Below, in pieces: positions 1 to 23,325 of a stretch of DNA of 25,168 bases. Position 1 is the first letter of the stretch. The number at the start of each line of letters is the position of its first letter. A program made the position numbers and the translations under genes. Source of the DNA: a virus; IMG/VR virus record IMGVR_UViG_3300032323_001763, positions 1-25,168 of that record; one strand, 5' to 3'. Below the pieces are notes generated by a model. That model did no database searches, was not told where the DNA came from, and saw only the letters and a list, made by a program, of their open reading frames with translations.

Positions 1-1
1 A

Positions 2-307
2 GTATATGAAGAACCTGTAGAACTTAATGAATATTATTTTCTTCTGTTTCTTAATAATATGATGGATGTTGAGCCTATCCCACTAACCGAAGAATGGTTG
101 TTGAAGTTGGGGTTTAAGAAAACTGAATGGGACAACTTTAATTCATATAGATTAATGATAGGTAATAATGATTACACAATTGTTTTATACTCAGATGGTA
201 ATTGTGAGGTTGGAGATATTATTACTTGTAAAATTGAATATGTCCACCAATTGCAAAACCTATACTTTGCATTAACGGGAGAAGAACTTAAACAACAAGA
301 ACAATGA
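2..307 (+). CDS. RIGN/PLTEEW-family small phage protein, 5' end missing
   Basis: The reading frame is open from the first bases of the window, so the ATG at 59 is probably internal and the gene starts upstream. The visible part has the pattern EPIPLTEEWLLKLGF, then about 35 variable residues, then YVHQLQNLYFALTGEEL. I recognise this as the C-terminal half of a small protein very common in Bacteroidota phages and prophages, whose N-terminus usually begins MKASELRIGN. The complete paralogue at 1256-1660 shows that layout. Its biochemical role is unknown. It ends in KQQEQ, encoded by the junction repeat at 288-307, and its TGA overlaps the next ATG (ATGA), which suggests translational coupling. 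Confidence 0.75.
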   Translation, partial: VYEEPVELNEYYFLLFLNNMMDVEPIPLTEEWLLKLGFKKTEWDNFNSYRLMIGNNDYTIVLYSDGNCEVGDIITCKIEYVHQLQNLYFALTGEELKQQEQ

Positions 308-522
308 AAACAGCAGTAGAATTTTTAAGAGATAGATATTACCAAATGGATGGTGAATTATCTGAGGAAGACTTTGAGCAAGCTCAAGAAATGCAGGAGA
401 GTCAAATTATTGATGCAACACTCTACGGGTTTAGACAAGATTCAGATGGTGATGATTGGGAAGGTGATAAACATAATGCAGAGAAATACTATAATGAAAC
501 CTTTAAACAACAAGAACAATGA
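304..522 (+). CDS. Small acidic phage protein, YYNETF family
   Basis: 72 aa, no TM segment, rich in Asp and Glu. It opens MKTAVEFLRDRYYQ and contains a helix around EDFEQAQEMQESQIIDA. It ends NAEKYYNETFKQQEQ. This architecture (MKTAVE-, EQAKEME-QII-, -YYNETF) is a frequent uncharacterised family in Bacteroidota phages. The gene overlaps both neighbours by ATGA and starts and ends in the junction repeat. Its last 13 residues (EKYYNETFKQQEQ) are identical to those of the next gene, although the two proteins differ upstream. Function unknown. Confidence 0.75.
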   Translation: MKTAVEFLRDRYYQMDGELSEEDFEQAQEMQESQIIDATLYGFRQDSDGDDWEGDKHNAEKYYNETFKQQEQ

Positions 523-794
523 AAGACAATAAACAACAGACGGCAGTGGACATTATTTATCAAGGGATTAGTGATAAAATAGTTATGCAAGATTTAAACA
601 AAGCATTAATTTGTATTCATATTTCACACGACGATTTCCTTAAACTACATAAACAAGCCAAAGAAATGGATAAGGAGCAGAAGGTTAAGTTTGCGGAAAA
701 TTGTTTAGACAAAGCATTAGACTTAGATATTAGAACTGCATTTTCTAATGTAGAAAAATACTACAACGAAACCTTTAAACAACAAGAACAATGA
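519..794 (+). CDS. Hypothetical small phage protein with shared YYNETF tail
   Basis: 91 aa, soluble, Lys-rich, probably mostly helical (KLHKQAKEMDKEQKVKFAENCLDKALDLD). The C-terminus EKYYNETFKQQEQ is identical to that of the preceding gene while the rest differs, so the 3' end looks like a module shared by duplication or recombination. Overlaps by ATGA at both ends. No motif lets me assign a function. Confidence 0.7.
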   Translation: MKDNKQQTAVDIIYQGISDKIVMQDLNKALICIHISHDDFLKLHKQAKEMDKEQKVKFAENCLDKALDLDIRTAFSNVEKYYNETFKQQEQ

Positions 795-1042
795 AAACAG
801 AATTAGAAAAATTTGCAGAGGAACATGGTTTTGTTAAACTAACACAATCAAACCACCCTCAAGATGGACAAACAGTAGAAATTTTGGGTAGTTCAATTTC
901 AAAAGATATTAATGTAGAAAAAGTAGAATGGTTTTTTGATGGAGTTAATCACAATTATAAATGGATAACCCATGAGTTTAACAAAGGTATAATGACAACC
1001 TCACTTGATTATTGGAGAGTTTTTCAACCTAAACAATGTTAA
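791..1042 (+). CDS. Hypothetical small phage protein
   Basis: 83 aa with no TM or signal peptide. The central stretch DGQTVEILGSSIS and the aromatic-rich WFFDGVNHNYKW and DYWRVF segments suggest a small beta-rich fold. I recall similar DGQ-V-----W---F proteins in Bacteroidota phages but cannot name a function. It is the only gene in this array that does not end in KQQEQ. It stops at 1042, just before a copy of the junction repeat that is therefore untranslated in this frame (1046-1065). Confidence 0.65.
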   Translation: MKTELEKFAEEHGFVKLTQSNHPQDGQTVEILGSSISKDINVEKVEWFFDGVNHNYKWITHEFNKGIMTTSLDYWRVFQPKQC

Positions 1043-1045
1043 CCT

Positions 1046-1065
1046 TTAAACAACAAGAACAATGA
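1046..1065 (+). promoter_or_regulatory. Untranslated copy of the junction/translation-start repeat
   Basis: TTAAACAACAAGAACAATGA lies between the TAA of the preceding gene and the ATG at 1062. It is identical to the copies that elsewhere encode (F/L)KQQEQ plus stop, but here it lies outside the upstream coding region. Its preservation without coding constraint suggests a nucleotide-level role. The likely one is an A-rich initiation region, which Bacteroidota ribosomes favour in place of a Shine-Dalgarno sequence. Confidence 0.6.
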
Positions 1066-1259
1066 TACCAATAGATAGAGCAAAAGACTTGGTAAGTAAG
1101 TTTGGTAAAGAACTTGCCCCAAAAGTAGTTGATGAAATTATTGATGCTTTGGAAACTTATGATGATTACAATGATACCTTTGAGTTACAAAATATGGATG
1201 GTGACTTTAGGTATTGGGACAAAGTAAAACAAGAACTAACTAAACAACAAGAACAATGA
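1062..1259 (+). CDS. Small phage protein, YWDKVK family
   Basis: 65 aa, helical and acidic: an N-terminal AKDLVSKFGKE segment, then VVDEIIDALE, then YWDKVKQELTKQQEQ. It is paralogous to the gene at 1779-1997 (AQELL-KF, VAVDEILE, YWDKVKHELNKQQEQ) and more distantly to 2802-3011. Members usually read K-KAQELV-K / AK-CALIAVDEI / YW--VK-E and are widespread in Bacteroidota phages without known function. The start follows an untranslated copy of the junction repeat. Confidence 0.75.
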   Translation: MIPIDRAKDLVSKFGKELAPKVVDEIIDALETYDDYNDTFELQNMDGDFRYWDKVKQELTKQQEQ

Positions 1260-1660
1260 AAGCAAGTGAATTAAGAATAGGGAATCTGATAAATGGAATT
1301 TATCATGACTACGATGACGGTATTCATGAAGATATTGAAAATGAAACCATCTGCAAAGTAGTAACACTTGATGTATCTGGTAGTGGAGATTATCCAATTT
1401 ATGTTTATTCAGATGAAGACATTGAGCATTTTAGCGACTTTGAACCTATCCCACTAACCGAAGAATGGCTTGTGAAGTTTGGATTTGATAAAACATCATT
1501 GCATTATCTTAAAAAAAATGGTATTATTATTCAATCAGAAGATGACTATTTTGAGTGCCTTTTAGGTATTGTTATTGTCAAGTTACAATACGTCCACCAA
1601 CTTCAAAACCTATACTTTGCCCTTGCAGGCGAAGAACTAACAATTAAAAATCAAGAGTAA
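1256..1660 (+). CDS. RIGN/PLTEEW-family small phage protein, full length
   Basis: 134 aa. The N-terminus MKASELRIGNLINGIYHDY is the signature start of this Bacteroidota phage family. The middle EPIPLTEEWLVKFGF and the C-terminal YVHQLQNLYFALAGEEL match the truncated paralogue at 2-307. It probably forms a small beta-rich N-terminal domain followed by a helical tail, with no membrane segment. Function unknown. It overlaps both neighbours (ATGA at 1256, TAATG at 1658-1662), and its 3' end has only a weak version of the junction repeat. Confidence 0.8.
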   Translation: MKASELRIGNLINGIYHDYDDGIHEDIENETICKVVTLDVSGSGDYPIYVYSDEDIEHFSDFEPIPLTEEWLVKFGFDKTSLHYLKKNGIIIQSEDDYFECLLGIVIVKLQYVHQLQNLYFALAGEELTIKNQE

Positions 1661-1782
1661 TGAAAATAATTAGCCTTTACCCAAGCAATGATGTTTACCA
1701 AGTAGTAAGTGAAGATGAACAAACAATTTACTTTCAAGGTACATTAGAAGAATGTGAACTATTTAAACAACAAGACCTATGA
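1660..1782 (+). CDS. Very small phage protein (40 aa)
   Basis: ATG at 1660-1662, TGA at 1780-1782. The product opens MKIISLYPSNDVYQVV, contains TIYFQGTLEECE and ends KQQDL. I recognise the pattern SLYP---YQV----ETIYFQGT-EEC as a tiny protein of Bacteroidota phages. It is flanked by TAATG at its start and ATGA at its end, and finishes in a slightly diverged junction repeat, so it fits the array in frame, spacing and composition. Function unknown. Confidence 0.7.
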   Translation: MKIISLYPSNDVYQVVSEDEQTIYFQGTLEECELFKQQDL

Positions 1783-1997
1783 CACAACAAGAAAAAGCAC
1801 AAGAATTGCTTATTAAGTTTGAGCATCCGATGGGATATGTTTATTTGAAGCGAGTAATAGCTAAACAATGTGCGCTTGTTGCAGTTGATGAGATACTTGA
1901 AGTATTGTACTCTTTAAAATTGGGCAATGCTCTTTCTGAAGAAATAGAATATTGGGACAAAGTAAAACACGAACTAAATAAACAACAAGAACAATGA
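1779..1997 (+). CDS. Small phage protein, AKQCALVAVDEIL family
   Basis: 72 aa. It has the family layout KAQELLIKF, then AKQCALVAVDEILEVL, then EYWDKVKHELNKQQEQ, and is a paralogue of 1062-1259. It is predicted to be an all-helical soluble protein and carries the conserved Cys of the KQCAL motif. It is the last complete protein of the junction-repeat array. The junction after it (1978-1997) provides an ATG that opens only 15 codons and runs into hairpins. Confidence 0.75.
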   Translation: MTQQEKAQELLIKFEHPMGYVYLKRVIAKQCALVAVDEILEVLYSLKLGNALSEEIEYWDKVKHELNKQQEQ

Positions 1998-2003
1998 AAA
2001 AAA

Positions 2004-2049
2004 CCCTTAAACCTGAGAATAAGGGTATGCTTATAAAATAATTTATAAG
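2004..2049 (+). terminator. Two consecutive hairpins after the small-gene array
   Basis: CCCTTA (2004-2009) pairs with TAAGGG (2020-2025). Next, CTTATAAA (2030-2037) pairs perfectly with TTTATAAG (2042-2049) around a 4-nt loop. There is no clear U-tract, so this may be a weak terminator, an RNA-processing site or a mRNA-stabilising structure rather than a strong stop. A 15-codon ORF (1994-2041) runs through it and could conceivably be a leader peptide, but I do not call it a gene. Confidence 0.4.
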
Positions 2050-2083
2050 TGGGGTTGAAACAAAAATACAAAACAAAAAGAAT

Positions 2084-2347
2084 ATGGCAATTAAAGACAA
2101 TCACTCACCTGCTGCATATCTCGTGTTTAACTTAACGTTTCCTTTCATGAAGCATGATTTATCGGATGATGAGTTAAATCCTATTACATCGAATATCCTC
2201 GATATGTATCGGTGTGCAGAAATCACAATAGATGTGTTAAAACAAGAGTTTGTGAACCAAGGTGTAAAGCATCCGGAATACTACGATGAAGCGCATCAAC
2301 ACATTATTGAACAAATTTTAGAACTTAAACAATCAAAAAACCAATAA
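2084..2347 (+). CDS. Hypothetical protein
   Basis: 87 aa, soluble, with no recognised motif. Asp- and His-containing helices dominate (HDLSDDELNPITSN, HPEYYDEAHQHIIEQILELK). The start is preceded by a long A-rich tract, as expected of a Bacteroidota initiation region. It lies 2 nt upstream of the secreted-protein gene and probably shares its transcript. Confidence 0.6.
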   Translation: MAIKDNHSPAAYLVFNLTFPFMKHDLSDDELNPITSNILDMYRCAEITIDVLKQEFVNQGVKHPEYYDEAHQHIIEQILELKQSKNQ

Positions 2348-2349
2348 AA

Positions 2350-2805
2350 ATGAAAAAGTTAATTTTATCAGCATCATTATTCTTTACTTTAAGTGCGCAG
2401 GCGCAATGGGTTGTAAAGAAGTTAGATAACGGGTTTGATGCACCGTTTAAAATTGCATACACAGAGGATGGTCAACGTCCTTTCTTAAAAATGGAACGTT
2501 ACGAAGGTGCCGGTGTGTTGATTTTCAAAGGCGTTTACTTTTGTGGCTCGCCTGTGTTTATAGAATTATCCTTTCAAGTCAATGGTGTCAACAAGCAGTA
2601 TGGTCGCATTTGTGAATTGAATGAAGATGAAACTACATGCTTTATTACGTTTGATATTAAGAATGAAGATTTCTTCAATGACTTCAAAAACTGCACATCG
2701 GTAAAGGTTCGTGTTACGGATGCATCATGCGAAGAAACCGGAGAAATTTATACATTTAAGATGAATGGTTCAACAGCAGCTGTTAACTTTATACTTACAC
2801 CATGA
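2350..2805 (+). CDS. Secreted protein with signal peptide
   Basis: 151 aa. The N-terminus MKKLILSASLFFTLSAQAQ is a classic Sec signal peptide with a likely AQA cleavage site at about residues 18-19. The mature part is short-stranded and beta-rich, with five Cys (in FCGS, RICEL, TTCF, NCTS, SCEE) that could form disulfides in the periplasm. I do not recognise the family. An exported product in an early-type operon could act at the host envelope, for example in superinfection exclusion, but nothing visible proves this. Its TGA overlaps the next ATG. Confidence 0.7.
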   Translation: MKKLILSASLFFTLSAQAQWVVKKLDNGFDAPFKIAYTEDGQRPFLKMERYEGAGVLIFKGVYFCGSPVFIELSFQVNGVNKQYGRICELNEDETTCFITFDIKNEDFFNDFKNCTSVKVRVTDASCEETGEIYTFKMNGSTAAVNFILTP

Positions 2806-3011
2806 GTCGCGCATATCACTTAATCAAGATGTCGGAGGAGGAGTATGCGAAGTACTTACTTGAAAAAATGACTATTGATATGATGATGGATTTTGAGCAA
2901 ACGAAGCAATGTGCTTTGAATTGTCTTGATGAAATGCTATCACTAGCGCCTGATGCACAGACGATGAAGTTTCTGTTGAGAACAAAAAATATTATTGAAC
3001 CACAAAACTAA
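2802..3011 (+). CDS. Small helical protein, distant relative of the KQCAL family
   Basis: 69 aa with the central QTKQCALNCLDEMLSLAP, which matches AKQCALVAVDEILEVL of the gene at 1779-1997. An N-terminal helix (MSEEEYAKYLLEKM) replaces KAQELLIKF. It therefore looks like a third, diverged member of that phage family. It lacks the YWDKVK and KQQEQ tail. It overlaps the upstream secreted-protein gene by ATGA. Confidence 0.65.
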   Translation: MSRAYHLIKMSEEEYAKYLLEKMTIDMMMDFEQTKQCALNCLDEMLSLAPDAQTMKFLLRTKNIIEPQN

Positions 3012-3017
3012 ACCGCC

Positions 3018-3146
3018 ATGCTACCAAAAGCCTATTACTACAAAACTCGCCAGAATTATGAAGCATCATCGAAAAGTGCGTTCTACGCCTTGTTGTTACT
3101 CATCATAATGTCTTTCATACTGTTTCTCTCTCAAATGTTTCAGTAA
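3018..3146 (+). CDS. Small single-TM protein (42 aa)
   Basis: ATG at 3018-3020 and TAA at 3144-3146. A basic, Tyr-rich N-terminus (PKAYYYKTRQNYE) is followed by a C-terminal hydrophobic segment (AFYALLLLIIMSFILFL), so the product is a predicted inner-membrane protein with N-in topology. It is the last gene before the convergent terminator. Its spacing of 6 nt from the upstream stop supports real translation. It could be an accessory holin or antiholin-like peptide, but no family is recognised. Confidence 0.55.
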   Translation: MLPKAYYYKTRQNYEASSKSAFYALLLLIIMSFILFLSQMFQ

Positions 3147-3150
3147 ATAA

Positions 3151-3186
3151 AAAAAGGGTGGTTGTTTTGATACAATCACCCTTTTT
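3151..3186. terminator. Bidirectional intrinsic terminator between convergent operons
   Basis: AAAAAGGGTGGTTGT (3151-3165) pairs with ACAATCACCCTTTTT (3172-3186) around a 6-nt loop: 15 positions with one G·T wobble. An A-run precedes and a T-run follows, so it works as a rho-independent terminator on both strands. It separates the last plus-strand gene from the SOD gene on the minus strand. Confidence 0.85.
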
Positions 3187-3205
3187 AATTATCCGTTTGT
3201 GCGCT

Positions 3206-3817
3206 TCAATGCATCTGCAATACTTTATTGCAATAATCCCAGTTTATAACCTTGAATATATTCCTAACATAACTCTCTCTTTCCGCATTGTATTTCAAAT
3301 AATACGCATGCTCCCAAACATCAATTCCCAATATGATATCAACATCCATATACATTTTGGGATTGTCCTGGTATGGTGTTTCGGTTATCATAACCCGGCC
3401 TGTGCGTTTGGAAATAACTAACCACACCCAACCCGAACCAAATCTTTTCTTTGCAGTTTCAAGCATCAACTTTTGAAAGTTTGCATATCCATTGAAATTT
3501 GAGTCGATAACATTTTTTATCAACCCATAAGGTTCATTCTTTAAATTTGTGGGTGGTTTTAACATTGCCCAAAACAAACTATGGTTGTAATACCCGCCTC
3601 CGTTGTTGCGTATAGTAGTGGAGTAATTATCGATTGATTTTATCAACTGCTGGATGGGCATTTTTTTGACCTTCTCCTTTACTACGGCTTCATTCAAGTT
3701 TTTTAAATAAGTTAAGTAATGCTTATTGTAATGAATAAACATCGTCTCCTCATCAATGAAAGGTTCAAGTGAGGCGTAGGCATAGGGTAGTTTCTTTGGT
3801 AAATACATAGCATTCAT
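3206..3817 (-). CDS. Iron/manganese superoxide dismutase
   Basis: Converts superoxide to oxygen and hydrogen peroxide. It has no signal peptide, so it should act in the cytoplasm. From the ATG at 3817 it is 203 aa, the normal SodA/SodB length. Hallmarks in order: LPYAYASLEP (10-19), MFIHYNKHY (26-34), NNGGGYYNHSLFW (71-83), GSGWVWLV (127-134), YQDNP (149-153), GIDVWEHAYYLKY (164-176). All four metal ligands are present: His29, His79, Asp166, His170. NNGGG together with Gln150 matches Mn-type or cambialistic enzymes, not the classic Fe-type. An upstream ATG at 3853 would start inside a hairpin and adds residues with no family match, so I prefer 3817. Hairpins bracket the gene on both sides. 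Confidence 0.93.
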   Translation of the reverse strand: MNAMYLPKKLPYAYASLEPFIDEETMFIHYNKHYLTYLKNLNEAVVKEKVKKMPIQQLIKSIDNYSTTIRNNGGGYYNHSLFWAMLKPPTNLKNEPYGLIKNVIDSNFNGYANFQKLMLETAKKRFGSGWVWLVISKRTGRVMITETPYQDNPKMYMDVDIILGIDVWEHAYYLKYNAERESYVRNIFKVINWDYCNKVLQMH

Positions 3818-3821
3818 TTTT

Positions 3822-3868
3822 AAAAAAGGGTGGTCGTATTTTACAACAATCACCCTTTGTTTTTTTTG
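3822..3868 (-). terminator. Hairpin just upstream of the SOD gene, twin of 3151-3186
   Basis: AAAGGGTGGT (3825-3834) pairs with ATCACCCTTT (3849-3858). On the minus strand the hairpin is followed by a run of six T, as expected of an intrinsic terminator for the gene at 3886-4215. The stem sequence is nearly the same as that of the terminator on the other side of the SOD gene. Because the SOD start lies only 4-5 nt beyond it, it could also act as an attenuator or hide the SOD start. Confidence 0.65.
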
Positions 3869-4979: not shown

Positions 4980-5600
4980 TTATTTTACATACTCAAAATA
5001 CTTGTACGTCTTTTGTTTCCTATCCTCCAAACCATGCGTACCGCCATTGATGCGTTTTGTCAAAGCAAGGATTGCCGCATCGGTGATACCTTGGTCGCAT
5101 ATTGACCACAACTTGTTACGTTCAAAGAAGAACATTGCGGATTCAAAAGAATACTTTGTTGCAACAAGGTCTGGGTTTGTCAACACCTCATCCGTACCTA
5201 AATACTTTGCAAACGCAGTGTAATTGTCTTTGCCTGTTAATTGCAATGCACCACGACCACGGAATTTCCATCCATCACCCGTTGCCTCCGCACCATTGCC
5301 CATCCTTGCACCATATACGCGGTTTGCAATCTTCTCTGGGTTACGAGCATAGGATGTTGCTAAATCGCCCGGGAAGTATTTACCAAATATCTTTTTCAAC
5401 CCATCGGTTGAGTAATTCAAATTTTCGGAAAACAACTTAAAACCACCCGTCTCATGTGATGTTTGCGCAAAGAAATGCGCAGCACGTACAGGCGAGAGTT
5501 TGTAAAACTCCATTGCCTTTTTCATTGTTCCCGGTCCAAATGCACCATCAACTTGTGCGCCTGTAAAACCAACCTTCTCTTGTAAACTCTTTAAACTCAT
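4980..5600 (-). CDS. GH19-family endolysin (chitinase/lysozyme-like)
   Basis: Predicted to cleave the glycan backbone of peptidoglycan at lysis. 206 aa, no signal peptide or TM, so it needs a holin for release. The first 35 residues (LQEKVGFTGAQVDGAFGPGT) resemble a short peptidoglycan-binding or linker motif. The catalytic domain follows: AAHFFAQTSHETGGF with the catalytic acid Glu50, SENLNYS (58-64), NRVYGARMGNG, and the substrate-cleft motif FRGRGALQLTGKDNY typical of GH19. It starts exactly at the stop of the holin-like gene (TAATG), giving a holin-endolysin-spanin order. Confidence 0.88.
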   Translation of the reverse strand: MSLKSLQEKVGFTGAQVDGAFGPGTMKKAMEFYKLSPVRAAHFFAQTSHETGGFKLFSENLNYSTDGLKKIFGKYFPGDLATSYARNPEKIANRVYGARMGNGAEATGDGWKFRGRGALQLTGKDNYTAFAKYLGTDEVLTNPDLVATKYSFESAMFFFERNKLWSICDQGITDAAILALTKRINGGTHGLEDRKQKTYKYFEYVK

Positions 5601-5867: not shown

Positions 5868-6425
5868 TTACTTTAATTTTAAAAAATTTAACCTCGGCCG
5901 CGATGGTAATGCAATATCAAACTGCCATCCCAAACTTGGCTCTTTTTGATTATCATCCTTTGGACATTCTTCATTTATTTTGAAAAACATAATATCCCCA
6001 GTATAATCATCCTTTCGTACTACATATGTTGATAAATCAACCGCTACAACTTCTTTATTTGCATATGAGTAATAAATCCAAGCACCCTCCATTGACCTTC
6101 GCAATAACCATTCGGTAATCGAATCCAGTGTTTCATCGCGCACAAGTTCCTTTTCAACTATTGTTCTATATTCAACAAACCTTTCTGTGTAAAACAGCAA
6201 TAAAGTATCGCGCATTGCAATGATTGAATCCTTCACTTTTGTCTGTTGCTTGAAATTTGCAATTTTCAATTTCTGTGAATCGAATATTGCGTTTATTGTA
6301 TCAGCTTGCGCCTTGGTAAGAATTACAACCGAATCGCCATCAATTACCGTCTGAAATGGGTAGCGTGATTGGCTGAAACTCAAACTGCTTACCACTAGAC
6401 TGCCTACGAACAACATCTTTTTCAT
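5868..6425 (-). CDS. Exported protein, second spanin-like partner
   Basis: 185 aa from the ATG at 6425, which puts a signal peptide first (MKKMLFVGSLVVSSLSFSQS). The next part (GDSVVILTKAQADTINAIFDSQKLKI) matches DTVIVFKIEQGRK...KL of the gene at 4194-4643, a motif I have seen in many Bacteroidota phage proteins. A coiled coil follows to about residue 100. A C-terminal globular stretch rich in Tyr, Asp and Lys replaces the TM of its paralogue. It overlaps the upstream TM/coiled-coil gene by 86 nt in a different frame, an Rz/Rz1-like embedded arrangement. Role inferred: envelope disruption, or a periplasmic partner of that protein. Confidence 0.5.
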   Translation of the reverse strand: MKKMLFVGSLVVSSLSFSQSRYPFQTVIDGDSVVILTKAQADTINAIFDSQKLKIANFKQQTKVKDSIIAMRDTLLLFYTERFVEYRTIVEKELVRDETLDSITEWLLRRSMEGAWIYYSYANKEVVAVDLSTYVVRKDDYTGDIMFFKINEECPKDDNQKEPSLGWQFDIALPSRPRLNFLKLK

Positions 6426-9565: not shown

Positions 9566-10396
9566 TTATTTTCTGTATTTAAACTTTTCAAAATACCATG
9601 TGTAGTTGTTATACAACCACTCACAAATATCTTGTCCTAAAATTTGTTTATAATCCGGTTGCTCCATCGATAATGTTGTGCGGATGCGATGCAAGTCAGA
9701 TGTTAAACCATAAACTTCATCATCCTCCTTTGTAATCTGTGCAATATTATCAAAATCATGCTCAAATTGTTCAACACCCAAATACTCATAAATGCGTTTC
9801 ATTTCGAGTTCGGGATTGAGGCACAAATCCTCGTATTTAACAAACAATACGTGTGTGTCTTGACCAAGACGTATCATTTCTAAAATGCGTTCAACAGCGC
9901 GCCCAATTGTCGATGTAGTATCCATCCATTCGTCCACTCGTTTGTGAACTATAGTTCCGCGACCCGTGGAATCATCACGAATCGGGTCATGTTTCAATGG
10001 GTTCTTACGATATATCTTTTCGTATGATGCAACAACTGCGCGTAAATCACGAACAAGGCAGATGATTTTTGGTTCTTCGTGTATCTCGGCTAAAAACGGC
10101 CTATACACTCCCCAACCTCTACTCTTGTCCATTACATACTTCTTGTCTGTAATTGCATTGTAAAACCCATACATACCTTCCTTGCAAAACGCCTTAAAAC
10201 CCTCCTCCATCAATTGCGCATCTTGCGCTTGGAATTCTGGTGATGATGTATAATTCGCTCTTGCGCCAAATATCAACTCCAAAACGCCCGATGTGGGTGT
10301 TACGTAAAAATCCGGGTTTTGCCCAAGGATGTTTTGAAACAATGTCGAGCCACTTCTTGGCATCGATGATTGAAAAAATATCTTACTTACTCCCAT
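9566..10396 (-). CDS. PAPS-dependent sulfotransferase
   Basis: Transfers sulfate from PAPS to a hydroxyl or amine acceptor, probably a glycan or lipid. 276 aa, cytosolic. The 5'-phosphosulfate-binding loop is SMPRSGSTLF (11-20). The 3'-phosphate-binding motif is VRDLRAVVASYEKIYR (115-130), with Arg116 and Ser124 in the expected places. The C-terminal half (HVLFVKYEDLCLNPELEMKRI, IYEYLGVE) is typical of the Sulfotransfer family. The start overlaps the GT9-like gene by 14 nt, so the two are translationally coupled and probably act on the same molecule. The acceptor is unknown. Confidence 0.85.
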   Translation of the reverse strand: MGVSKIFFQSSMPRSGSTLFQNILGQNPDFYVTPTSGVLELIFGARANYTSSPEFQAQDAQLMEEGFKAFCKEGMYGFYNAITDKKYVMDKSRGWGVYRPFLAEIHEEPKIICLVRDLRAVVASYEKIYRKNPLKHDPIRDDSTGRGTIVHKRVDEWMDTTSTIGRAVERILEMIRLGQDTHVLFVKYEDLCLNPELEMKRIYEYLGVEQFEHDFDNIAQITKEDDEVYGLTSDLHRIRTTLSMEQPDYKQILGQDICEWLYNNYTWYFEKFKYRK

Positions 10397-11670: not shown

Positions 11671-13560
11671 TTAAACAATTTTTAAAGTCCCTGCATCGTT
11701 CCAAACTGAACCTGCGGGTAAACCTGCGGAGGATGTTGGTATTGATTTAATAGAAAGGTTGTTTACAAATAGTGTGTTTGTTCTATCTGATGTAATGCCC
11801 ATACCCGCAATAAACGAACAATTACAAGAAGCTGCATTTCCACAACCACCTAAAACAGATGACCAATATCCGGATGCTGTATTGCTTTGTCCACCCGTTA
11901 CAAGTGAACATGCACCATTTGCAGTATTTGAACGCCCTCCTAAAACTGCTGAATTGTTTCCTGATGCTGTATTTAAACATCCCGAACCTACAAATGCGAA
12001 ATATGCAGATGCTGTATTGCTTTGTCCACCTACAATAACGCCTCCTGAACCTGCAGTGTTAGATGTTCCTGAAACTATTCCAGAATTTTTTTGACCAGAA
12101 ATTGTATTTACAAAACCAGCTCCGATAAAACCATAGTTGCCAGATACAGTATTTGCATAACCCCCACTGATAGTTGACCTTAGACCTGAAACATTGTGTT
12201 TTTGACCACCACTTACTGTTGATGTATATCCAGATGCTGTATTACATTGCCCTCCTGTGATTGAAGAAAAACTTCCTGTTGCCCTATTTTGAAAACCACC
12301 ACCTACAAAGGAGTATGCACCTGCATTGCAAATTGTAGGTGCAACTGTAAACGCACATGTTGCTAAATCCCAAGTACCACCTGTTGTGTTGTTTCCAACA
12401 CCACCTACTACTACCGCACCAAATGCAAGGCATCCACTTGTTGAATTACATACTGCGTTGCATTCGCCTCCTCCTACAAATGAATGAAAGGCACTAGCAA
12501 GGTTCCTTTCGCCTCCTGCAATTGTTGAACGTAATCCAGATGATGTATTTGATATACCGCCTCCTAAAAATGAATATGCGCCGCTAGCAGTGTTTGAACT
12601 TCCACTTCCAATAAAACTTCTAATACCTGAAGCAATATTCAAAACTCCTCCAGAAATTGTCGCAAATTGACCACTTGTGCTATTACACTGTCCCCCAGCA
12701 ATCGTACTATATCCACCGCTTGCAGTATTTGTTATACCTCCGCCTATACTTGTTCTATTTGCTGATGCGATGTTTGATTGACCCCCAGAAATAGTTGATG
12801 CAGTTAATGAAGCGGTATTCGAAAGCCCTCCACTTACAGTTGAGAAATCACCACATGCTACGTTTGTTGACCCGCCTGCAATTGTGGAATATTGCGCATT
12901 TGCAACATGACAAAAACCACCTCCGATAAAAGCTGCATAACCTGATGAAGTATTATTTTGTCCTCCGACTACAGTTGAAAAATTGTTAGTGCTTAAATTG
13001 AATCTGCCAGAAATAGATGATGCTGTGTTTCCTGATGCTGTATTTGATTGACCGCCTGCAACAACGTTTCTACATAACGATGCCGAATTACCAGATCCAC
13101 CGCCCACAAATGAACATCCTCCATTTGCTGAATTTGCACAACCGCCCGAAACCGTACTATAAGCAGAAGAAACGGTATTTGACCAACCTCCTGCAATTAC
13201 TGCGCTATTTCCACTTGCTGCATTTTGCCTGCCCCCACTTATAACGGCAAATGGCCCGCTAGAATTGTTACTAAAACCACCGCCTACAAATGCATCTGAT
13301 GCCGATGCTGAATTGTTTCTACCAAATGCTACTCCTGCATATGTTGATGATGCTGTGTTGCAACGACCACCTGCAACACCTGAACATGCACCAGAGGCTG
13401 TATTCAAAGTACCTCCTAATGCCGCGGAATACGCGCCAGAAGCGCTATTACTCACACCGCAACGAACTGTTGAGCATGTGCCTGCACCCAATATCTCAAC
13501 CGCACATAACGCAGGACATGATGCAGGTTGCCCAGTTGCTTGAAAACCAAATTCACTCAT
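11671..13560 (-). CDS. YadA-head-like, cysteine-rich repetitive virion fibre
   Basis: 629 aa. After MSEFGFQATG and a Cys-rich leader (residues 11-38), 22 uninterrupted 15-residue units run from 39 to 368. Their pattern is N-(T/S)-A-S-G-x-x-S-x-(V/I)-x-G-G-x-x, that of trimeric autotransporter (YadA/Hia) head beta-rolls. An insert (about 369-415, GNNTTGGTW, AFTVAPTICN) separates these from about 11 further, less regular units. The C-terminus (NNLSIKSIPTSSAGLP, then SVWNDAGTLKIV) resembles phage fibre ends. There is no signal peptide and no outer-membrane barrel anchor, so this is a virion fibre and not an autotransporter. It has 23 Cys by my count, unusual for this fold. Starts by ATGA overlap with its paralogue. 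Confidence 0.75.
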   Translation of the reverse strand: MSEFGFQATGQPASCPALCAVEILGAGTCSTVRCGVSNSASGAYSAALGGTLNTASGACSGVAGGRCNTASSTYAGVAFGRNNSASASDAFVGGGFSNNSSGPFAVISGGRQNAASGNSAVIAGGWSNTVSSAYSTVSGGCANSANGGCSFVGGGSGNSASLCRNVVAGGQSNTASGNTASSISGRFNLSTNNFSTVVGGQNNTSSGYAAFIGGGFCHVANAQYSTIAGGSTNVACGDFSTVSGGLSNTASLTASTISGGQSNIASANRTSIGGGITNTASGGYSTIAGGQCNSTSGQFATISGGVLNIASGIRSFIGSGSSNTASGAYSFLGGGISNTSSGLRSTIAGGERNLASAFHSFVGGGECNAVCNSTSGCLAFGAVVVGGVGNNTTGGTWDLATCAFTVAPTICNAGAYSFVGGGFQNRATGSFSSITGGQCNTASGYTSTVSGGQKHNVSGLRSTISGGYANTVSGNYGFIGAGFVNTISGQKNSGIVSGTSNTAGSGGVIVGGQSNTASAYFAFVGSGCLNTASGNNSAVLGGRSNTANGACSLVTGGQSNTASGYWSSVLGGCGNAASCNCSFIAGMGITSDRTNTLFVNNLSIKSIPTSSAGLPAGSVWNDAGTLKIV

Positions 13561-15518
13561 GGTACTATTGTTAAAACACCTCCATTACTCCAAACTGCCT
13601 TAGATGGTAAACCAGCAGAAGATGTTGGTATATTCATTATTGATAAATTATTTACAAATGTTGTACAATTCCTATTTGATGTAATATCAGATCCAACGAT
13701 ATATGATTTGTAACAAGATGCGGTATTATTGCAACCACCTAAAACTGCAGTAGCACGTCCAGATACTATATTATTTCGACCTCCACTAATTGTTGAATAA
13801 CAACCACTTGCCGTGTTACCAAACCCACCCCCGATGGTTACTCCAGCACCACCCGTTGCTTGATTACTTGAACCGCCACTTATGGTATTACCATTAGACG
13901 AAACTATTAAATTAGAATTACCCCCACCGATTGTTCCACAACATCCAGCATTTGTATTAGCGCATCCCCCCGTAATAGTAGCAAAATCTAAATTAGCTTG
14001 ATTATTAGCACCTCCACCTATAAATGTTCCACTATTAACTGATGAATTACTGGAGCCACCACCAATTGTACTTGGATAAGTGTCTTCATAATAATTAGAA
14101 GCCGTATTAAAACCTGCGGTGTTTTGAATACCTCCTCCTATCGTATGATTTGCTCGATTTTGGGAACATAAATTATTTAAGTTTTGGTTAATAGTATTTC
14201 CTGCTCCACCTCCTATAAATGATGCCCAACAATTTGTAGTTCCACATTGAGTATTATCTGCCCCTTGAATAACATTCGATATACCACCTGTAATAGTAGA
14301 AGCACAACCACCATAGTTACTTAATGTATTTAAAAAACCACCTCCAATAGTTCCCCATAGATTGCAAGCGGTGTTACACTCACCTCCTGCAACTACTGCT
14401 CTTTGTGCTATTGCCCTATTAATTGAACCACCACCGACTGTTGACAAATACTGACTTGCTGTATTAAATCTACCCCCGATTATACTTGTAAACTGACTCG
14501 TTGCTCGGTTTTGAAAGCCTCCCCCAATAAATGAGTATTGACCTGCATTACATATTGTTGGAGCAACTGTAAACGCGCATGAAGCCAATGTCCATGTCCC
14601 TCCCGTTGTATTGTTACCAATACCTCCGACTACCACTGCACCGATTGCAAGACATGAAGATGTAGAGTTGCAAGCGTTATTGCAAATACCGCCTAATACT
14701 GCTCCTGCATATCCTTGAACATTATTTCTAAATCCGCCTGCAATTGTTCCGCATGCACCATTAACTATATTCGAATTACCACCTCCAATGAATGAACGCG
14801 TACTTGTAATTGCATTTGAGTAACCGCCTGAAATTGTTGAAAAATCACCTGTTATGCAGTTATTATTACCTCCACCAATTGCTGTCCAGTTGTTGCATGC
14901 CTTATTTGAACCACCTCCCGCGATTGTTGCACCTGTATTTGCAGCGCAGTTTGCTGAACCACCGCCAATAAAAGTTGAATTTCCTGATGCCGTATTTGTA
15001 CACCCTCCTACAATAGTTGCATAAACTCCCGAAACAGTGTTTGTATTACCCGTTCCTATAAATGAATGGCATCCTGAAGCTGTGTTAAATGTACCCGTTA
15101 CAACTGATGCTCTAGCACCACTAACACTATTTCCGAAACCAGACCCAATAAATGTATATCCATTAGATACAGTTACCGCCCTACCGCTAGCGATACCAGC
15201 TTTTGATGCACTAGCAGTTAAACTTGCTCCATTTCCTGTTCCTAAAAATGCATGTCCTCCGCAATTTGTATTTAAATCACCGCCTCCAATAAATGAACAA
15301 GCACCTAATGCATTATTTGAACATCCTCCTACAACTATAGAGTATAATCCAGATGCAGTATTTGTTCTGCCGCCTAATGCTGCTGAATATGAGCCTGAAG
15401 CATTATTACTTACACCACAACGAACTGTAGAGCATGTGCCTGCGCCCAATATCTCAACTGCACATAATGCAGGACATGATGCCGGTTGACCCGTTGCTTG
15501 AAAACCAAATTCACTCAT
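13557..15518 (-). CDS. Second YadA-head-like, cysteine-rich fibre
   Basis: 653 aa tandem paralogue of the next gene. The first 38 residues are nearly identical (MSEFGFQATG, CPALCAVEIL, TCSTVRCGV). The body has the same GG-x-x-N-T-A-S-G repeats but with irregular unit lengths and longer inserts (for example around ADNTQCGTTNCW and FNTASNYYEDTYPS). The AFTVAPTICN/GNNTTGGTW insert is also shared. About 31 Cys by my count. C-terminus NNLSIMNIPTSSAGLP. No signal peptide or barrel. Probably a trimeric fibre with its own receptor specificity, or a partner of the paralogue. Confidence 0.72.
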   Translation of the reverse strand: MSEFGFQATGQPASCPALCAVEILGAGTCSTVRCGVSNNASGSYSAALGGRTNTASGLYSIVVGGCSNNALGACSFIGGGDLNTNCGGHAFLGTGNGASLTASASKAGIASGRAVTVSNGYTFIGSGFGNSVSGARASVVTGTFNTASGCHSFIGTGNTNTVSGVYATIVGGCTNTASGNSTFIGGGSANCAANTGATIAGGGSNKACNNWTAIGGGNNNCITGDFSTISGGYSNAITSTRSFIGGGNSNIVNGACGTIAGGFRNNVQGYAGAVLGGICNNACNSTSSCLAIGAVVVGGIGNNTTGGTWTLASCAFTVAPTICNAGQYSFIGGGFQNRATSQFTSIIGGRFNTASQYLSTVGGGSINRAIAQRAVVAGGECNTACNLWGTIGGGFLNTLSNYGGCASTITGGISNVIQGADNTQCGTTNCWASFIGGGAGNTINQNLNNLCSQNRANHTIGGGIQNTAGFNTASNYYEDTYPSTIGGGSSNSSVNSGTFIGGGANNQANLDFATITGGCANTNAGCCGTIGGGNSNLIVSSNGNTISGGSSNQATGGAGVTIGGGFGNTASGCYSTISGGRNNIVSGRATAVLGGCNNTASCYKSYIVGSDITSNRNCTTFVNNLSIMNIPTSSAGLPSKAVWSNGGVLTIVP

Positions 15519-18202: not shown

Positions 18203-18454
18203 TTATTGAGGCATTGGAGGTGTTGGTTTCGGAACGTATTCAATTAACGGAAGTTCTTTAACCCACAATGTTTCTTCATTCGTTGTATCTTGCATCTCCT
18301 CAACGCTAATCACCCAGTTGTCATCTGCATCCTGAATTGGATTATAAATCGAATCTGGCGCGTAATAAACGCCTACAAGCGAGTCTTTTTGCTCTTCAGT
18401 TAATAAACCTACATAAACTGTAGTGTCCTCTTGTGTGATGTCTGTTAGTTTCAT
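18203..18454 (-). CDS. Small acidic protein of the fibre cluster
   Basis: 83 aa, acidic, with a Pro-rich end (YVPKPTPPMPQ). The segments LTEEQKDSLVG, YNPIQDADDNWVISVEEM and WVKELPLIEY match a pattern I have seen for small proteins encoded beside fibre genes in Bacteroidota phages. It may be a fibre-associated or assembly protein. The start codon is coupled to the end of the HNH gene (TAATG), and the large fibre gene follows 24 nt downstream. Confidence 0.55.
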   Translation of the reverse strand: MKLTDITQEDTTVYVGLLTEEQKDSLVGVYYAPDSIYNPIQDADDNWVISVEEMQDTTNEETLWVKELPLIEYVPKPTPPMPQ

Positions 18455-19188
18455 TATACTTGTTCTTTAAATTTTTTCAATATTTCTCTAAATAACTCAT
18501 CTTTGTAAGCTCCTCTTGCTTTGTTTACCCATACGCACACAAATTGTACATTACCTTCAACATAGCCTAATTCATTATCAATTCTATCTAAAGATATTAA
18601 ATATGGGCTTGATGTCATTTCACGCTTCTCAATGTAAGTTTTTGGACATAATATTTGAGTATTTGTGTACGAGCATTTAAAATCTTGTTTCTCCAATAAT
18701 CTTTGCAAATATTCAATGCTTACCGTAAATGGATAATTTCTTGAATTTGCATTTGATTTCCAACTTCCAAATAGTGAATTATAAATATTTTTAGTTCCTC
18801 CCTTATTACAGTTTCTTGGTTGACGCTTGCCAGATGCCCATACTTTTGACATCATTCCACTCTTACCTTCAACTCTTTTAATATTGTTTCTCTCAATTAT
18901 TAATTTAACTTTTTCAGATCCTATTTTATACTTCTTTGATAATTCATTTTGAGTAGCTCCGTTTTTATACTGTTCACATAATGCATCTTCATAATCAAAT
19001 TTAAGTTCTTTTATACTTGCATATAATGCAGATTTACCCATCATCTCAACACCGTTCATCTTTAATACTCTACGAACTCTGTCGGTAGTTGCATTTAAAT
19101 AAGTTGCAATTTGTTGTACTGTCTTCTTACCATAGTTGCTTACTATATAATCAGCATCTAATGGTTTAAAATTATTCCATGTTCCCAT
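18454..19188 (-). CDS. HNH homing endonuclease
   Basis: Predicted free-standing selfish endonuclease that cuts a related virus genome at the cognate site and spreads by repair. 244 aa from the ATG at 19188. Two helix-turn-helix-like segments (KKTVQQIATYLNATTDRVRR, 21-40; NELSKKYKIGSEKVKLIIER, 81-100) should read DNA. The C-terminal HNH-type nuclease has FKCSYT (170-175), SLDRIDNELGY (199-209), EGNVQFVC (211-218) and Asn222, the layout of phage SxDRID-type HNH enzymes. The longer start at 19227 would overlap the fibre stop; 19188 follows a -7 promoter element directly. Its base composition is more AT-rich than its neighbours. Confidence 0.8.
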   Translation of the reverse strand: MGTWNNFKPLDADYIVSNYGKKTVQQIATYLNATTDRVRRVLKMNGVEMMGKSALYASIKELKFDYEDALCEQYKNGATQNELSKKYKIGSEKVKLIIERNNIKRVEGKSGMMSKVWASGKRQPRNCNKGGTKNIYNSLFGSWKSNANSRNYPFTVSIEYLQRLLEKQDFKCSYTNTQILCPKTYIEKREMTSSPYLISLDRIDNELGYVEGNVQFVCVWVNKARGAYKDELFREILKKFKEQV

Positions 19189-19192
19189 AAGA

Positions 19193-19200
19193 CAAATATA
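19193..19200 (-). promoter_or_regulatory. -7 element directly upstream of the HNH gene
   Basis: Minus-strand TATATTTG, identical to the element at 11653-11660, ends 4 nt before the ATG at 19188. Transcription would begin at or next to the start codon and so give a leaderless mRNA. No TTG is visible at the correct -33 spacing, which lowers confidence. Confidence 0.35.
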
Positions 19201-19219
19201 CAATAATGTAGTCATTTCA

Positions 19220-21604
19220 TTAAGCAATTTGACGCCCTAAGGCTGTTTGATATGCTTGTACTATGGTGTATAGGTTCAATGCGTCTGCATCGGTTAAACC
19301 ATCACCTATTGATGCGAAGGCGGTTTGACGATTAGAATATGAGCTTGGGCTACCTGTTAAATTTAAAGCTGATATGTATAAGCTCACAGTAGATAAAGCA
19401 GATGTTTGCGCTCCATCAATAACTTTTACTCCGTTTTTATATCCCGTTGTGTTGGTGCTTGAATTTCTATTGGTTACAAACAATCCTAAACTTGAAGTAT
19501 TGGCTATTGATTTAACTTGAGCAGTTGCGCCATAGCAAGTATAAAATTTATCATCAAGGTATCTTGTTATCAAATTTTGTTCCGTTGCACCAACACTTGA
19601 CCCCATATCATATACACCCGTATTGTTGTTAGTTCTTGAATAAAAACTAAAGTGTCCGCTTGTTGTAGATAAAGACGAACTCGGAGATAAATATGTGTTA
19701 GCATATCCATTAGTCCCATTAGGAGTAGCCCCATTACTAGAATGTGTCCACCCTCCGTTGAAAACTAAACGATATGCAGCATCAGAATCAACCGGATTCA
19801 TAAGGTTGAATTTATGAGTTGATGCTGTTCCTCCAACAAAAGGATAAACCGCTTTCATTTTTGTCCACAATCCATTGTACTTTAATCCTAGTACCAAGTT
19901 GTTGATTGCATCCGCTTGAGTTACATCTGTAATCTGTGCTGCATCAATGAATGCTTGTGCATTTGGATCTGATACAACTGGAAGACCTACTTGGCGACTT
20001 AATGCTTCTTGATATGTTTGAACTGCAATGTAAAGGTTAGCTGCTTCGGTGTCGGTTAGACCCTCTCCAATTGTATCAAATGCGTGTTGATGAGGAGTGT
20101 ATTGTGTAGGTCCTGTTGACCAATTTGAACCACCTAAATATATTGTCCTATTTGGCAATAATTTAGTTTCGGTATTTGTATTCGTATTAAGTGAACTACC
20201 GTTAAAATATAATTTTGCAGAATTATTTGCGGTTCTATTACCTATTTGAAAACCTAAAGTATTCGTATTATTTACATATACGGCTGTTAATGAATATCCA
20301 TACAATGAAGAACCTTTTGCTAAAACACTGGCATAATATTGCCAAATATTTACTTCACTATTACTTACTGAATCGTAAGCACCTAATTGAACACCATTAA
20401 CTGAAGTATTTTGTGTTCTTGAATAATTAGATGCGTGAACACTAAATTGAGATAAATTAGTTCTTGGATTGAAAAATGTATCCGCAAACCCATTAGTTCC
20501 ATTAGGTAAAGCGCCATTTGTTGAAAATGTCCATCCTCCATTGAATACTAATCTGAAAGCCGCGTCTAAATCGCGCGGGTCTTTAAGGTTGTATTTGAAC
20601 TGATTTGCTATTGCTGATTGAGCAGATGCAAGTTGTGGCTGGTAAGCAGTAAGCGTTCCTATTTCGTTTTGTGCTCCCCAACAAAATGTTGATTTTCCAG
20701 TAACAGCAGTAAAATTGTATACTCCATTTCCATCAGCATGTCTAAGTGCTATCAACGCATTATTTGTACCTGGCATAATTCCCGTTACTGAAACACGATA
20801 CCATCCATTTCCTTCATTTGAAATCGAGCTTGTTAAATAAGTTCCTACAGTTGCATTAGCAGTTCCTAAAACTCCATTTTGAACATCAACCCAAAGACGA
20901 ATACCATCTTGACCTGTTCCGTTCCAAATTTCAAGAGTTACCCATTGAGCATTATTGTACTTTAAATAAATACTATTTGTAAAAGTTTGTCCATTTCCTG
21001 CAATCCATCCTAAATTCCAAAATACATTATTTGCATTTGAAGTTGTAGCAAAAGTATCCGCAGTTAATGTTCCGTTAGGAGCGATAGCTGTATTTGCAGT
21101 TCGTGTCATTACAACTGAATTCCATCCAATTGCATTTGTTATGTCTTCACTATATCCTGCAAGATTACGTTGGTCAGTAACAAACGGATATATAGCTTTC
21201 ATCTTCGACCACAACCCGTATCCTTTCAAACTTTTGACTAATCCATCAATAGCTGCTTGTTGTGTTGCGCCTGTGATGCCCGTAGCTGCAAAATATGCAG
21301 CAGCCGCTGGATCTACTCCATCGTTATACCCATAAATGCCTATAATTTCAAATACACCGCCTGCAGTTGAATCAACGGTTATGTCTGATAATGTATAACC
21401 TTTATTCGCTTTTAATACAACAGGTTGATTAAAATCAAGTGAAACAGGTATGTTGACTAACCCCGGTATTTGCAAACCTCCAAGTAATGTCGCTGTGCCA
21501 GAAACCACCTCAATTGAAACCTCAGAAATTTGCATCTCCTCAGTAATTGTAAATGTAGTATTGGTAAATACAGACGAAAATACGCTTTGGTTCTTAAAAC
21601 TCAT
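19220..21604 (-). CDS. Large modular fibre, paralogue of 15824-18178
   Basis: 794 aa with the same plan as its paralogue: anchor domain (MSFKNQSVFSSVFTNTTFTI, 1-92), linker (GATQQAAIDGLVKSLKGYG), CBM-like beta-sandwich (about 150-330, ISNEGNGWYRVSVTG, CWGAQNEIG), LamG-like domain 1 (from YNLKDPRDLDAAFRLVFNGG), linker 2 (DPNAQAFIDAAQITDVTQ, identical to the paralogue) and LamG-like domain 2 (from FNLMNPVDSDAAYRLVFNGG). The linkers and domain edges are almost identical between the two proteins, while the cores of the LamG-like domains differ strongly. It is the first gene of the fibre run, preceded by a regulatory region at 21605-21727. Confidence 0.7.
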   Translation of the reverse strand: MSFKNQSVFSSVFTNTTFTITEEMQISEVSIEVVSGTATLLGGLQIPGLVNIPVSLDFNQPVVLKANKGYTLSDITVDSTAGGVFEIIGIYGYNDGVDPAAAAYFAATGITGATQQAAIDGLVKSLKGYGLWSKMKAIYPFVTDQRNLAGYSEDITNAIGWNSVVMTRTANTAIAPNGTLTADTFATTSNANNVFWNLGWIAGNGQTFTNSIYLKYNNAQWVTLEIWNGTGQDGIRLWVDVQNGVLGTANATVGTYLTSSISNEGNGWYRVSVTGIMPGTNNALIALRHADGNGVYNFTAVTGKSTFCWGAQNEIGTLTAYQPQLASAQSAIANQFKYNLKDPRDLDAAFRLVFNGGWTFSTNGALPNGTNGFADTFFNPRTNLSQFSVHASNYSRTQNTSVNGVQLGAYDSVSNSEVNIWQYYASVLAKGSSLYGYSLTAVYVNNTNTLGFQIGNRTANNSAKLYFNGSSLNTNTNTETKLLPNRTIYLGGSNWSTGPTQYTPHQHAFDTIGEGLTDTEAANLYIAVQTYQEALSRQVGLPVVSDPNAQAFIDAAQITDVTQADAINNLVLGLKYNGLWTKMKAVYPFVGGTASTHKFNLMNPVDSDAAYRLVFNGGWTHSSNGATPNGTNGYANTYLSPSSSLSTTSGHFSFYSRTNNNTGVYDMGSSVGATEQNLITRYLDDKFYTCYGATAQVKSIANTSSLGLFVTNRNSSTNTTGYKNGVKVIDGAQTSALSTVSLYISALNLTGSPSSYSNRQTAFASIGDGLTDADALNLYTIVQAYQTALGRQIA

Positions 21605-22548: not shown

Positions 22549-23325
22549 TTAAGGTTTTGCCTTTTTAACTGTTTTAATCAAAACGTAAATTGCTATCCCT
22601 AACAATCCTAAAATCAATCCAGTTCTACCTGGGTTATTCTTAACTGTTGTGCCAATTGTTGTTGTTACATACCTGTACAAATCACCTACGCGTTTCAAAG
22701 CATTTGTCATACCGCCCAACTTGTCTTGTGATTTTAAACCTTTCACATATGCAACAGAATTGCCCGTTCCCGCGGTTACGTGGTAAAAAGCAAGTGTAGC
22801 ATCCTCTGCGTTTTTAAAATCGTTTATACCCGTTGAATTGTACGCCTTTAGTTTGCCCGAATTCTTCAATGAATTGATACCTTGTTTGTTGAACTCTATC
22901 AACACTTTTGCAGCAGTTTTTGGGTCATTGACCTTATCCGGGTTAGATACAAGGTCTTCATTAATTCGTTTGCCAAAAGCATCGTAATTGCTTTTAAACG
23001 TCAATTGATTAAATCCTCTACCCCTGTACTTATACCCTTCATTTTTCGCATTACCATACCTGCCCCCGTAAATTGCATCACCAATTTCTTTTGGTTTCCC
23101 AGCCAATTGATTAGCCCTAGAGCTTGAAAGGTTAAAAACCTCCTGCAGCCTTTTGGCTGAATAATTCAAGTTCTCGGATTGCGGAATGAATTTGCTTTCT
23201 TTTGAGACAATAGACAATATGGCAGCAATGGAATACGGATTCGTAATACCACCTTTAACGGCTTCGTCTTTTATCAAAGCCATATTCCTTTTCTGTTCTG
23301 CCGATAATGTGTCTACGTAACTCAT
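22549..23325 (-). CDS. Tail-anchored GH19-like peptidoglycan hydrolase
   Basis: 258 aa. The GH19-like core matches the endolysin at 4980-5600: SIVSKESKF with the putative catalytic Glu43, SENLNYSAKRL (50-60), AIYGGRYGNA and YKYRGRGFNQLTFKSNYDAFG. A linker leads to a C-terminal TM (residues about 235-253, TGLILGLLGIAIYVLIKTV) and a basic end (KKAKP). No N-terminal signal is seen. A second GH19 enzyme fixed to a membrane and encoded among other TM proteins suggests a virion enzyme that opens peptidoglycan during entry, distinct from the soluble lysis enzyme. Confidence 0.8.
   Translation of the reverse strand: MSYVDTLSAEQKRNMALIKDEAVKGGITNPYSIAAILSIVSKESKFIPQSENLNYSAKRLQEVFNLSSSRANQLAGKPKEIGDAIYGGRYGNAKNEGYKYRGRGFNQLTFKSNYDAFGKRINEDLVSNPDKVNDPKTAAKVLIEFNKQGINSLKNSGKLKAYNSTGINDFKNAEDATLAFYHVTAGTGNSVAYVKGLKSQDKLGGMTNALKRVGDLYRYVTTTIGTTVKNNPGRTGLILGLLGIAIYVLIKTVKKAKP

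Follow-up and report, generated by a model that had tools for sequence, protein, structure and literature searches.

The start-associated sequences (SAS/ESAS) of Cluster K mycobacteriophages are short asymmetric repeats that lie just 5' of many non-structural gene starts, nearly always in one orientation, with several copies per genome before different gene families and near absence from the hosts (PMC3203893). The SAS itself is a 13-bp sequence (GGGATAGGAGCCC) with a Shine-Dalgarno (SD) core, placed 3-7 bp from the start codon, mostly of genes with more than 50 bp of upstream spacing, and accompanied by inverted repeats in half of cases. Other systems touch on gene exchange: boundary sequences of phage modules are short shared border sequences proposed to supply homology for exchange, but could not be found at most mosaic borders, and clean swapping of single genes by phages is a long-standing question (PMC3029335). 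Promoter-early stem-loops (PeSLs) of T4-type phages, which consist of a promoter and a stem-loop between genes, are repeated regulatory elements mediating accessory-gene shuffling (cited in PMC4503421), while TAACTGA direct repeats, heptamers in cellular genomes of Beggiatoaceae and some Bacteroidetes, sit near start codons and are suspected of a translational role and of horizontal spread (PMC4679880). Here we describe J1, an element of about 20-22 nt with the core TAAACAACAAGAACA-ATGA, which forms an array in a 25,168-nt stretch of virus record IMGVR_UViG_3300032323_001763 (positions 1 to 25,168; this whole stretch is the window, and all coordinates are positions in it). We propose that J1 is probably a portable, non-SD gene-start module of accessory genes in tailed Bacteroidota phages and also serves as a short patch of homology.

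Within the window, TTAAACAACAAGAACAATGA recurs seven times between 288 and 1997, always on the + strand and always with an ATG occupying positions 17-19 of the repeat, as an earlier note on this DNA had recorded. Four copies are exact: 288-307 (tail of open reading frame (ORF) 2-307, start of ORF 304-522), 503-522 (tail of 304-522, start of 519-794), 775-794 (tail of 519-794, start of 791-1042), and 1046-1065 (start of 1062-1259). Single mismatches occur at 1240-1259 (C at -16; tail of 1062-1259, start of 1256-1660) and 1978-1997 (A at -16; tail of 1779-1997), and two at 1763-1782 (a GACCT variant; tail of 1660-1782, start of 1779-1997); a degenerate J1-like junction with four mismatches, 1644-1663 (+), starts ORF 1660-1782. 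Shuffled sequences averaged 0.02 matches with three or fewer mismatches, and 0 of 100 shuffles reached eight, the number seen if one counts a three-mismatch match on the - strand (18470-18451), which also lies on an ATG gene start, opening ORF 18203-18454 and overlapping the stop of ORF 18454-19227. The shared KQQEQ tail that the note had attributed to the array proteins is present in five of them (2-307, 304-522, 519-794, 1062-1259, and 1779-1997), but the tail at copy 1763 reads KQQDL, and the copy at 1046 is out of frame with the preceding gene 791-1042, whose TAA comes before it. Because this copy encodes nothing for the upstream gene, the repeat is retained even where it is non-coding upstream.

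Exact J1 was found in at least 120 viral-contig stretches, of which many hold clusters of two to five copies, and the reversed 20-mer, used as a control, gave 0 matches in viral contigs. Only 2 of 84,980 cellular genomes scanned contained it, an Arenibacter genome and a Chitinophagales metagenome-assembled genome; both matches stand at the starts of long genes (352 and 185 codons) and are read into by ORFs of only 25 and 16 codons, features for which we take them as chance. A second module, J2 (TTTAAATCAGAATAAG-ATGA, with a KSE tail), likewise occurs in at least 120 viral-contig stretches, including a site behind a stop codon (L162), and is at least one further module built to this plan. In loci retrieved through a protein rather than through J1, the two form discrete peaks in the 16 bases before starts, with 10 and 11 distinct downstream contexts, respectively. 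Neither was found at up to three mismatches in the superoxide dismutase relatives (L299-L309) or in two Cellulophaga loci (L130/L131).

From the 120 loci and the window we assembled 324 J1 sites. Removing redundancy and requiring full flanks leaves 277, and ATGA closes 265 of these; 253 of the 265 junctions open an ORF of at least 25 codons. Among 28 virus records longer than 25 kb, chosen from the 120 loci, all 28 carry their J1 copies on a single strand, and the largest (173.8 kb) holds 21 copies at up to two mismatches. J1 thus marks where small accessory genes start, and within any one record its copies share an orientation. Terminases could be compared in 13 of the 28 records and fell into five groups: two sets of five (72-80% and 78-96% identical) and the singles G012, G001, and G007. 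Long alignments across groups stay below 40% identity.

J1 shares with SAS its proximity to gene starts (253/265) and its single orientation (28/28), and, like SAS, it is a short asymmetric repeat with multiple copies in a genome, linked to several gene families and all but missing from cellular genomes. It has neither the sequence nor the SD core of SAS: it directly adjoins the start codon and takes in its ATG, frequently runs over the stop of the gene before it, is found across terminase lineages less than 40% identical, and is an observed exchange boundary. It resembles the phage-module boundary sequences in that exchanged modules end there, and differs in being a single recurrent sequence, resolved to individual genes, that has the look of a start signal as well. 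Compared with PeSLs, J1 shows neither a stem-loop nor, by the sigma-70 pattern, an early promoter, and would act, if at all, at translation; compared with TAACTGA, it is single per junction and viral. A word search of the literature returned no description of the J1 element, neither the 16-mer AACAACAAGAACAATG nor the peptide YYNETF was found, and we found no account of a start signal that is also an exchange boundary, resolved to single genes and shared by several lineages, in a searched body of literature that leaves most subscription papers outside it.

What precedes J1 varies. An ORF of at least 25 codons ends in an overlapping TGA before 140 of the 265 junctions and is lacking before the other 125, where we instead found stop codons, intergenic DNA, a tRNA-like element, or a stem resembling a terminator and followed by a T run. 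J1 is therefore kept as DNA regardless of whether it codes for an upstream tail. Where it does, the same KQQEQ codons are used by 123 of 124 ORFs selected by J1 and by 36 of 36 selected by protein, when codon use in the gene bodies predicts 0.37 per tail. The tail is a by-product, the translation of J1 when the upstream gene runs into the element; selection on the protein tail was rejected given the out-of-frame copies and the codon uniformity. Translational coupling as the sole role of J1 was likewise rejected, on the 125 junctions without such an upstream ORF. A representative composed stretch containing J1 has almost no fold (-0.3 kcal/mol), and positions 1-3300 of the window show no excess of promoters (10 found versus 14.8 expected, sigma-70 pattern only), leaving a promoter or terminator within J1 unsupported. 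In two loci the tRNA-like element lies directly 5' of J1 (L016, reverse strand, ~10186-10265; L026, reverse strand, ~6040-6140), with paired ends AGTCAGG/CCTGACT, a T-arm-like AGGTTCGAGTCCT, and, in L016, a fold z-score of -2.4; neither ARAGORN nor Rfam called it.

The composition of J1 suggests a translation start signal. Positive determinants of start regions in Flavobacterium johnsoniae are A at -3, -6, -12, and -13 (PMC6847099), and the full set is carried by 97% of J1 (n = 229) and 99% of J2 junctions (n = 150), versus 11% of other starts (n = 2861) and 1% of internal Met codons (n = 7936). SD-like motifs precede 1.5% of other starts in J1 viruses, and by inspection J1 has none; with its four A positions and no SD, it has the make-up of a Bacteroidota-type A-rich start. 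From this we infer that J1 would give strong, context-independent, non-SD initiation. Of the "optimised A-rich translation-coupling signal" suggested in the earlier note, then, the A-rich start agrees with published determinants, while coupling does not describe nearly half of the junctions. The A-rich Kozak-like starts of F. johnsoniae are statistical preferences (PMC6847099), whereas J1 is a single fixed sequence reused across genes and viruses.

A-rich, SD-free starts are concordant with Bacteroidota-like hosts, which J1 phages probably infect. The cultured signals nearest to the window come from Cellulophaga phages, Nonlabens phage P12024L, and, weakly, Tenacibaculum phage Gundel_1, where a gene junction resembles J1 (31-nt match, 87.5%, E 3); the hosts of these phages belong to the Flavobacteriaceae.

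The earlier note had also proposed that the repeat lets small genes be exchanged like cassettes, and a search for the 20-mer in other viruses bears this out: J1 lies at gene starts there, and the adjoining genes differ between viruses, including between the window and a near relative. To quantify this, we called 4999 gene starts in 286 loci (279 J1, 189 J2; a J1 share of 5.6%) and paired genes from different viruses with at least 85% identity over their first 69 nt, comparing 154 nt upstream with gaps allowed and near-same viruses left out. Upstream sequence was unrelated in 103 of 113 J1-J1 pairs (7 same, 3 middle), or 91%, versus 746 of 1433 pairs (52%) at other starts; it was also unrelated in 32 of 34 J1-J2, 46 of 46 J1-other, and 19 of 29 J2-J2 pairs. 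J1 was retained across these exchanges much more often than its share of starts (5.6%) would give. In the other direction, where J1 pairs were alike over 70 nt upstream, the downstream gene differed in 97 of 102. Identity drops at -16/-17 upstream and beyond +5 downstream; identity within J1 follows from how the pairs were built, whereas the edges do not. Flanking genes thus change between viruses while J1 stays, and exchanged sequence stops at both of its edges. Mosaic exchange is common throughout these viruses, and more so at J1.

Variation inside the element points to where crossovers may fall. Base -16 is tied to the upstream module (discordance 0.025 versus 0.465 in unrelated comparisons) and bases -8, -5, and -2 to the downstream gene (0.007, 0.007, and 0.023 versus 0.080, 0.070, and 0.114), so the switch in linkage lies inside J1, consistent with crossover by homology within it. 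J1 copies from the same locus resemble one another no more closely (mean 1.40 differences) than copies from separate loci do (1.18), and we therefore rejected tandem duplication with homogenisation, including the single recent tandem duplication that the note had named as fatal to its idea.

Taken together, the gene behind J1 would be expressed whatever precedes it, be it a gene, a stop and terminator, or a tRNA-like element, and the identical 20-odd bases may permit short-homology recombination by host enzymes or by phage annealing enzymes such as ERF, swapping, dropping, or adding single genes with reading frames undamaged. Whether J1, J2, and perhaps further modules serve as standard connectors common to unrelated Bacteroidota phage lineages, each small gene being an interchangeable unit with an assured non-SD start and viruses whose structural genes are unrelated drawing on a shared accessory-gene pool through one-gene crossovers inside the start signal, we regard as evenly balanced. 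Border sequences being usually absent elsewhere, J1 offers a border that is visible, recurrent in many uncultured viruses, and coincident with a translation start, making gene-by-gene shuffling testable. It could also serve as a search tag for arrays of accessory genes of unknown function in Bacteroidota phages and is a candidate strong start for Flavobacterium genetics.

Several observations weigh against the proposal that J1 is a portable start module and homology patch. The frequency of exchange at other starts, given above, means that J1 is not required for exchange. Within J1, positions -14 to -12 vary more in the same-gene set (0.134, 0.074, and 0.070) than in unrelated comparisons (0.024, 0.006, and 0.038), and linkage is not clean there. 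The pairs are not independent, and most loci were fetched because of their J1 content. Upstream sequence also differed in 158 of 727 other-other pairs in protein-selected loci excluding the gene MKIEITHYGHK (see below); among J1-J1 pairs there, a small sample, it differed in 7 of 10. Ends of BLAST matches are only mildly enriched at J1 (291 of 2095 internal ends, versus 232 of 2328 random points), a comparison that is not like-for-like since ends were required to lie at J1 in both sequences and random points in one only; in loci selected by the TAVEWL family (below), 3 of 104 match ends and 2 of 140 random points fell at J1, weak support from a measure we judge blunt. As for enzymes, the length of J1 lies just under the minimal pairing length of Red-beta (23-27 bp) and far under that of RecA (31-34; PMC3945230). 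An ERF annealing-type recombinase occurs in 11 of the 28 records, the same 11 that carry Terminase_3, for which reason we rejected ERF as the sole recombinase; ERF is absent from 17 records, RecT from all 28, and Rad52_Rad22 from 27, in a survey confined to these 28 records, without an enrichment control. With J1 borderline for Red-beta, ERF in a minority, and RecT in none, the pathway outlined above is put forward only conditionally.

These same points bear on the possibility that J1 is just a good start region inherited with its gene, illegitimate recombination occurring anywhere and selection keeping those products with intact starts and stops, so that homology plays no role. Exchange at non-J1 starts, where identity drops at -1, is what this would predict, and the J1-J2 and J1-other swaps imply that the module itself is replaceable. 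Single-sided inheritance does not, however, account for retention of J1 across exchange on both sides or for internal bases that switch partner, and neighbour change is commoner at J1 than elsewhere; we consider this explanation rather unlikely. A further reading, that J1 is a site for an RNA-binding protein or small RNA defining a translational regulon, as proposed for the mycobacteriophage start-associated sequences, would explain why J1 is more exact than an A-rich start needs to be (C at -11, -8, and -2 and G at -5 are conserved and not listed determinants) and why J1 and J2 are two discrete alleles rather than a cloud. Recombinational spread explains this exactness as well, and a regulon factor would need to read nearly unstructured RNA, making the reading improbable in our estimation.

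That single genes are exchanged like cassettes at a short, fixed sequence also recalls site-specific recombination of the integron or invertase type. Yet J1 has no palindrome by inspection and lacks the structured site of integron cassettes, the change in its linkage is not confined to a single base, J2 or unrelated sequence can substitute for it, and the window array contains no recombinase gene (other parts of J1 viruses were not searched for integrases); such a mechanism appears very improbable. We give still less credence to an assembly artefact, in which unrelated contigs were joined at a common 20-mer. The sources are metagenomic contigs, and a 20-22-nt repeat could misjoin reads at very small k, but the same junctions recur (upstream sequence is shared in 61 of 175 J1-J1 pairs, and in 7 of 113 without near-same viruses), the J1-J2 and J1-other swaps share no 20-mer, the window has seven ordered copies with distinct neighbours, and the weak Gundel_1 match places a J1-like junction in a cultured phage. 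A portable start module that doubles as a homology patch accordingly remains our preferred, and probable, explanation.

One set of loci not selected by J1 comes from a protein search with the 52-aa gene MKIEITHYGHK, for which the best 80 of 122 relatives were taken (L310-L389); this gene was chosen as the commonest behind J1, and the proportion of J1 starts among its relatives should therefore not be read as a population estimate. Among these best 80, the start junction is J1 in 37, J2 in 6, and other in 37 (two without ATG at the inferred start), several of the last resembling indel variants of J1. They show 30 upstream contexts, 15 of them with J1, and one downstream neighbour is common to 58 of the 80. 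In a context common to 36 of the 80, a terminator-like stem (GCCTTC...AAAAAGGC, then a T run) precedes a J1-type start and marks the edge of a conserved block.

Relatives of the window illustrate exchange at individual junctions. L297 and L298 are 90% identical to the window in the protein at 2350-2805 and mostly collinear with it through 7.7 kb; in them, the homologue of the first flanking gene (2084-2347, +) abuts an exact J1 preceded by a ...YYNETFKQQEQ tail of the TAVEWL type. The window differs in having another last array gene and an 86-nt hairpin-bearing spacer. L013 carries a homologue of gene 1779-1997 (96% protein identity, also found in L132) behind a J1 that shows the rare GACCT variant seen in the window, and has another gene upstream, and a relative of window gene 1660-1782 sits elsewhere in its array.

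All eight array genes of the window lie on the + strand. Two belong to phrog_10066, function unknown: 2-307 (E 1.2e-23), whose 5' end is cut by the window edge, and 1256-1660 (E 2.2e-22). These were one of the paralogue pairs named in the earlier note and are clearly related with tails removed (score 173); the other pair, 1062-1259 (phrog_21441-like, E 0.00097) and 1779-1997 (phrog_21441, function unknown), is weak pairwise (score 34), yet both match the same family. Gene 304-522, with no Pfam or PHROG match, belongs to a family of unknown function that we name TAVEWL...YYNETF, with 51 viral-contig relatives, and 519-794 is a probable distant paralogue of that type (score 33 with tails removed). 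Gene 791-1042 is of unknown nature and 1660-1782 belongs to the SLYPSNDVYQVVSEDE family. The last J1 copy, at 1978, opens just a 15-codon ORF, and two predicted hairpins then close the array (1999-2045, +; -10.5 kcal/mol, z -3.3).

Elsewhere in the window, a - strand block includes a gene with iron/manganese superoxide dismutase domains (3206-3853; Pfam E 7.8e-31 and 7e-23), which has relatives in 12 viral loci, and a sulfotransferase-family protein (9566-10396; E 1.9e-21). Two GH19-type (chitinase class I) genes, endolysin-like, occur together in this one stretch of DNA, at 4980-5600 and 22549-23325 (both -). Two adjacent genes on the same strand (11671-13560 and 13557-15518) encode GG-N-AS-G repeat proteins with near-identical N-termini, the first of which matches LbR_Ice_bind, a beta-roll family (E 1.1e-15).

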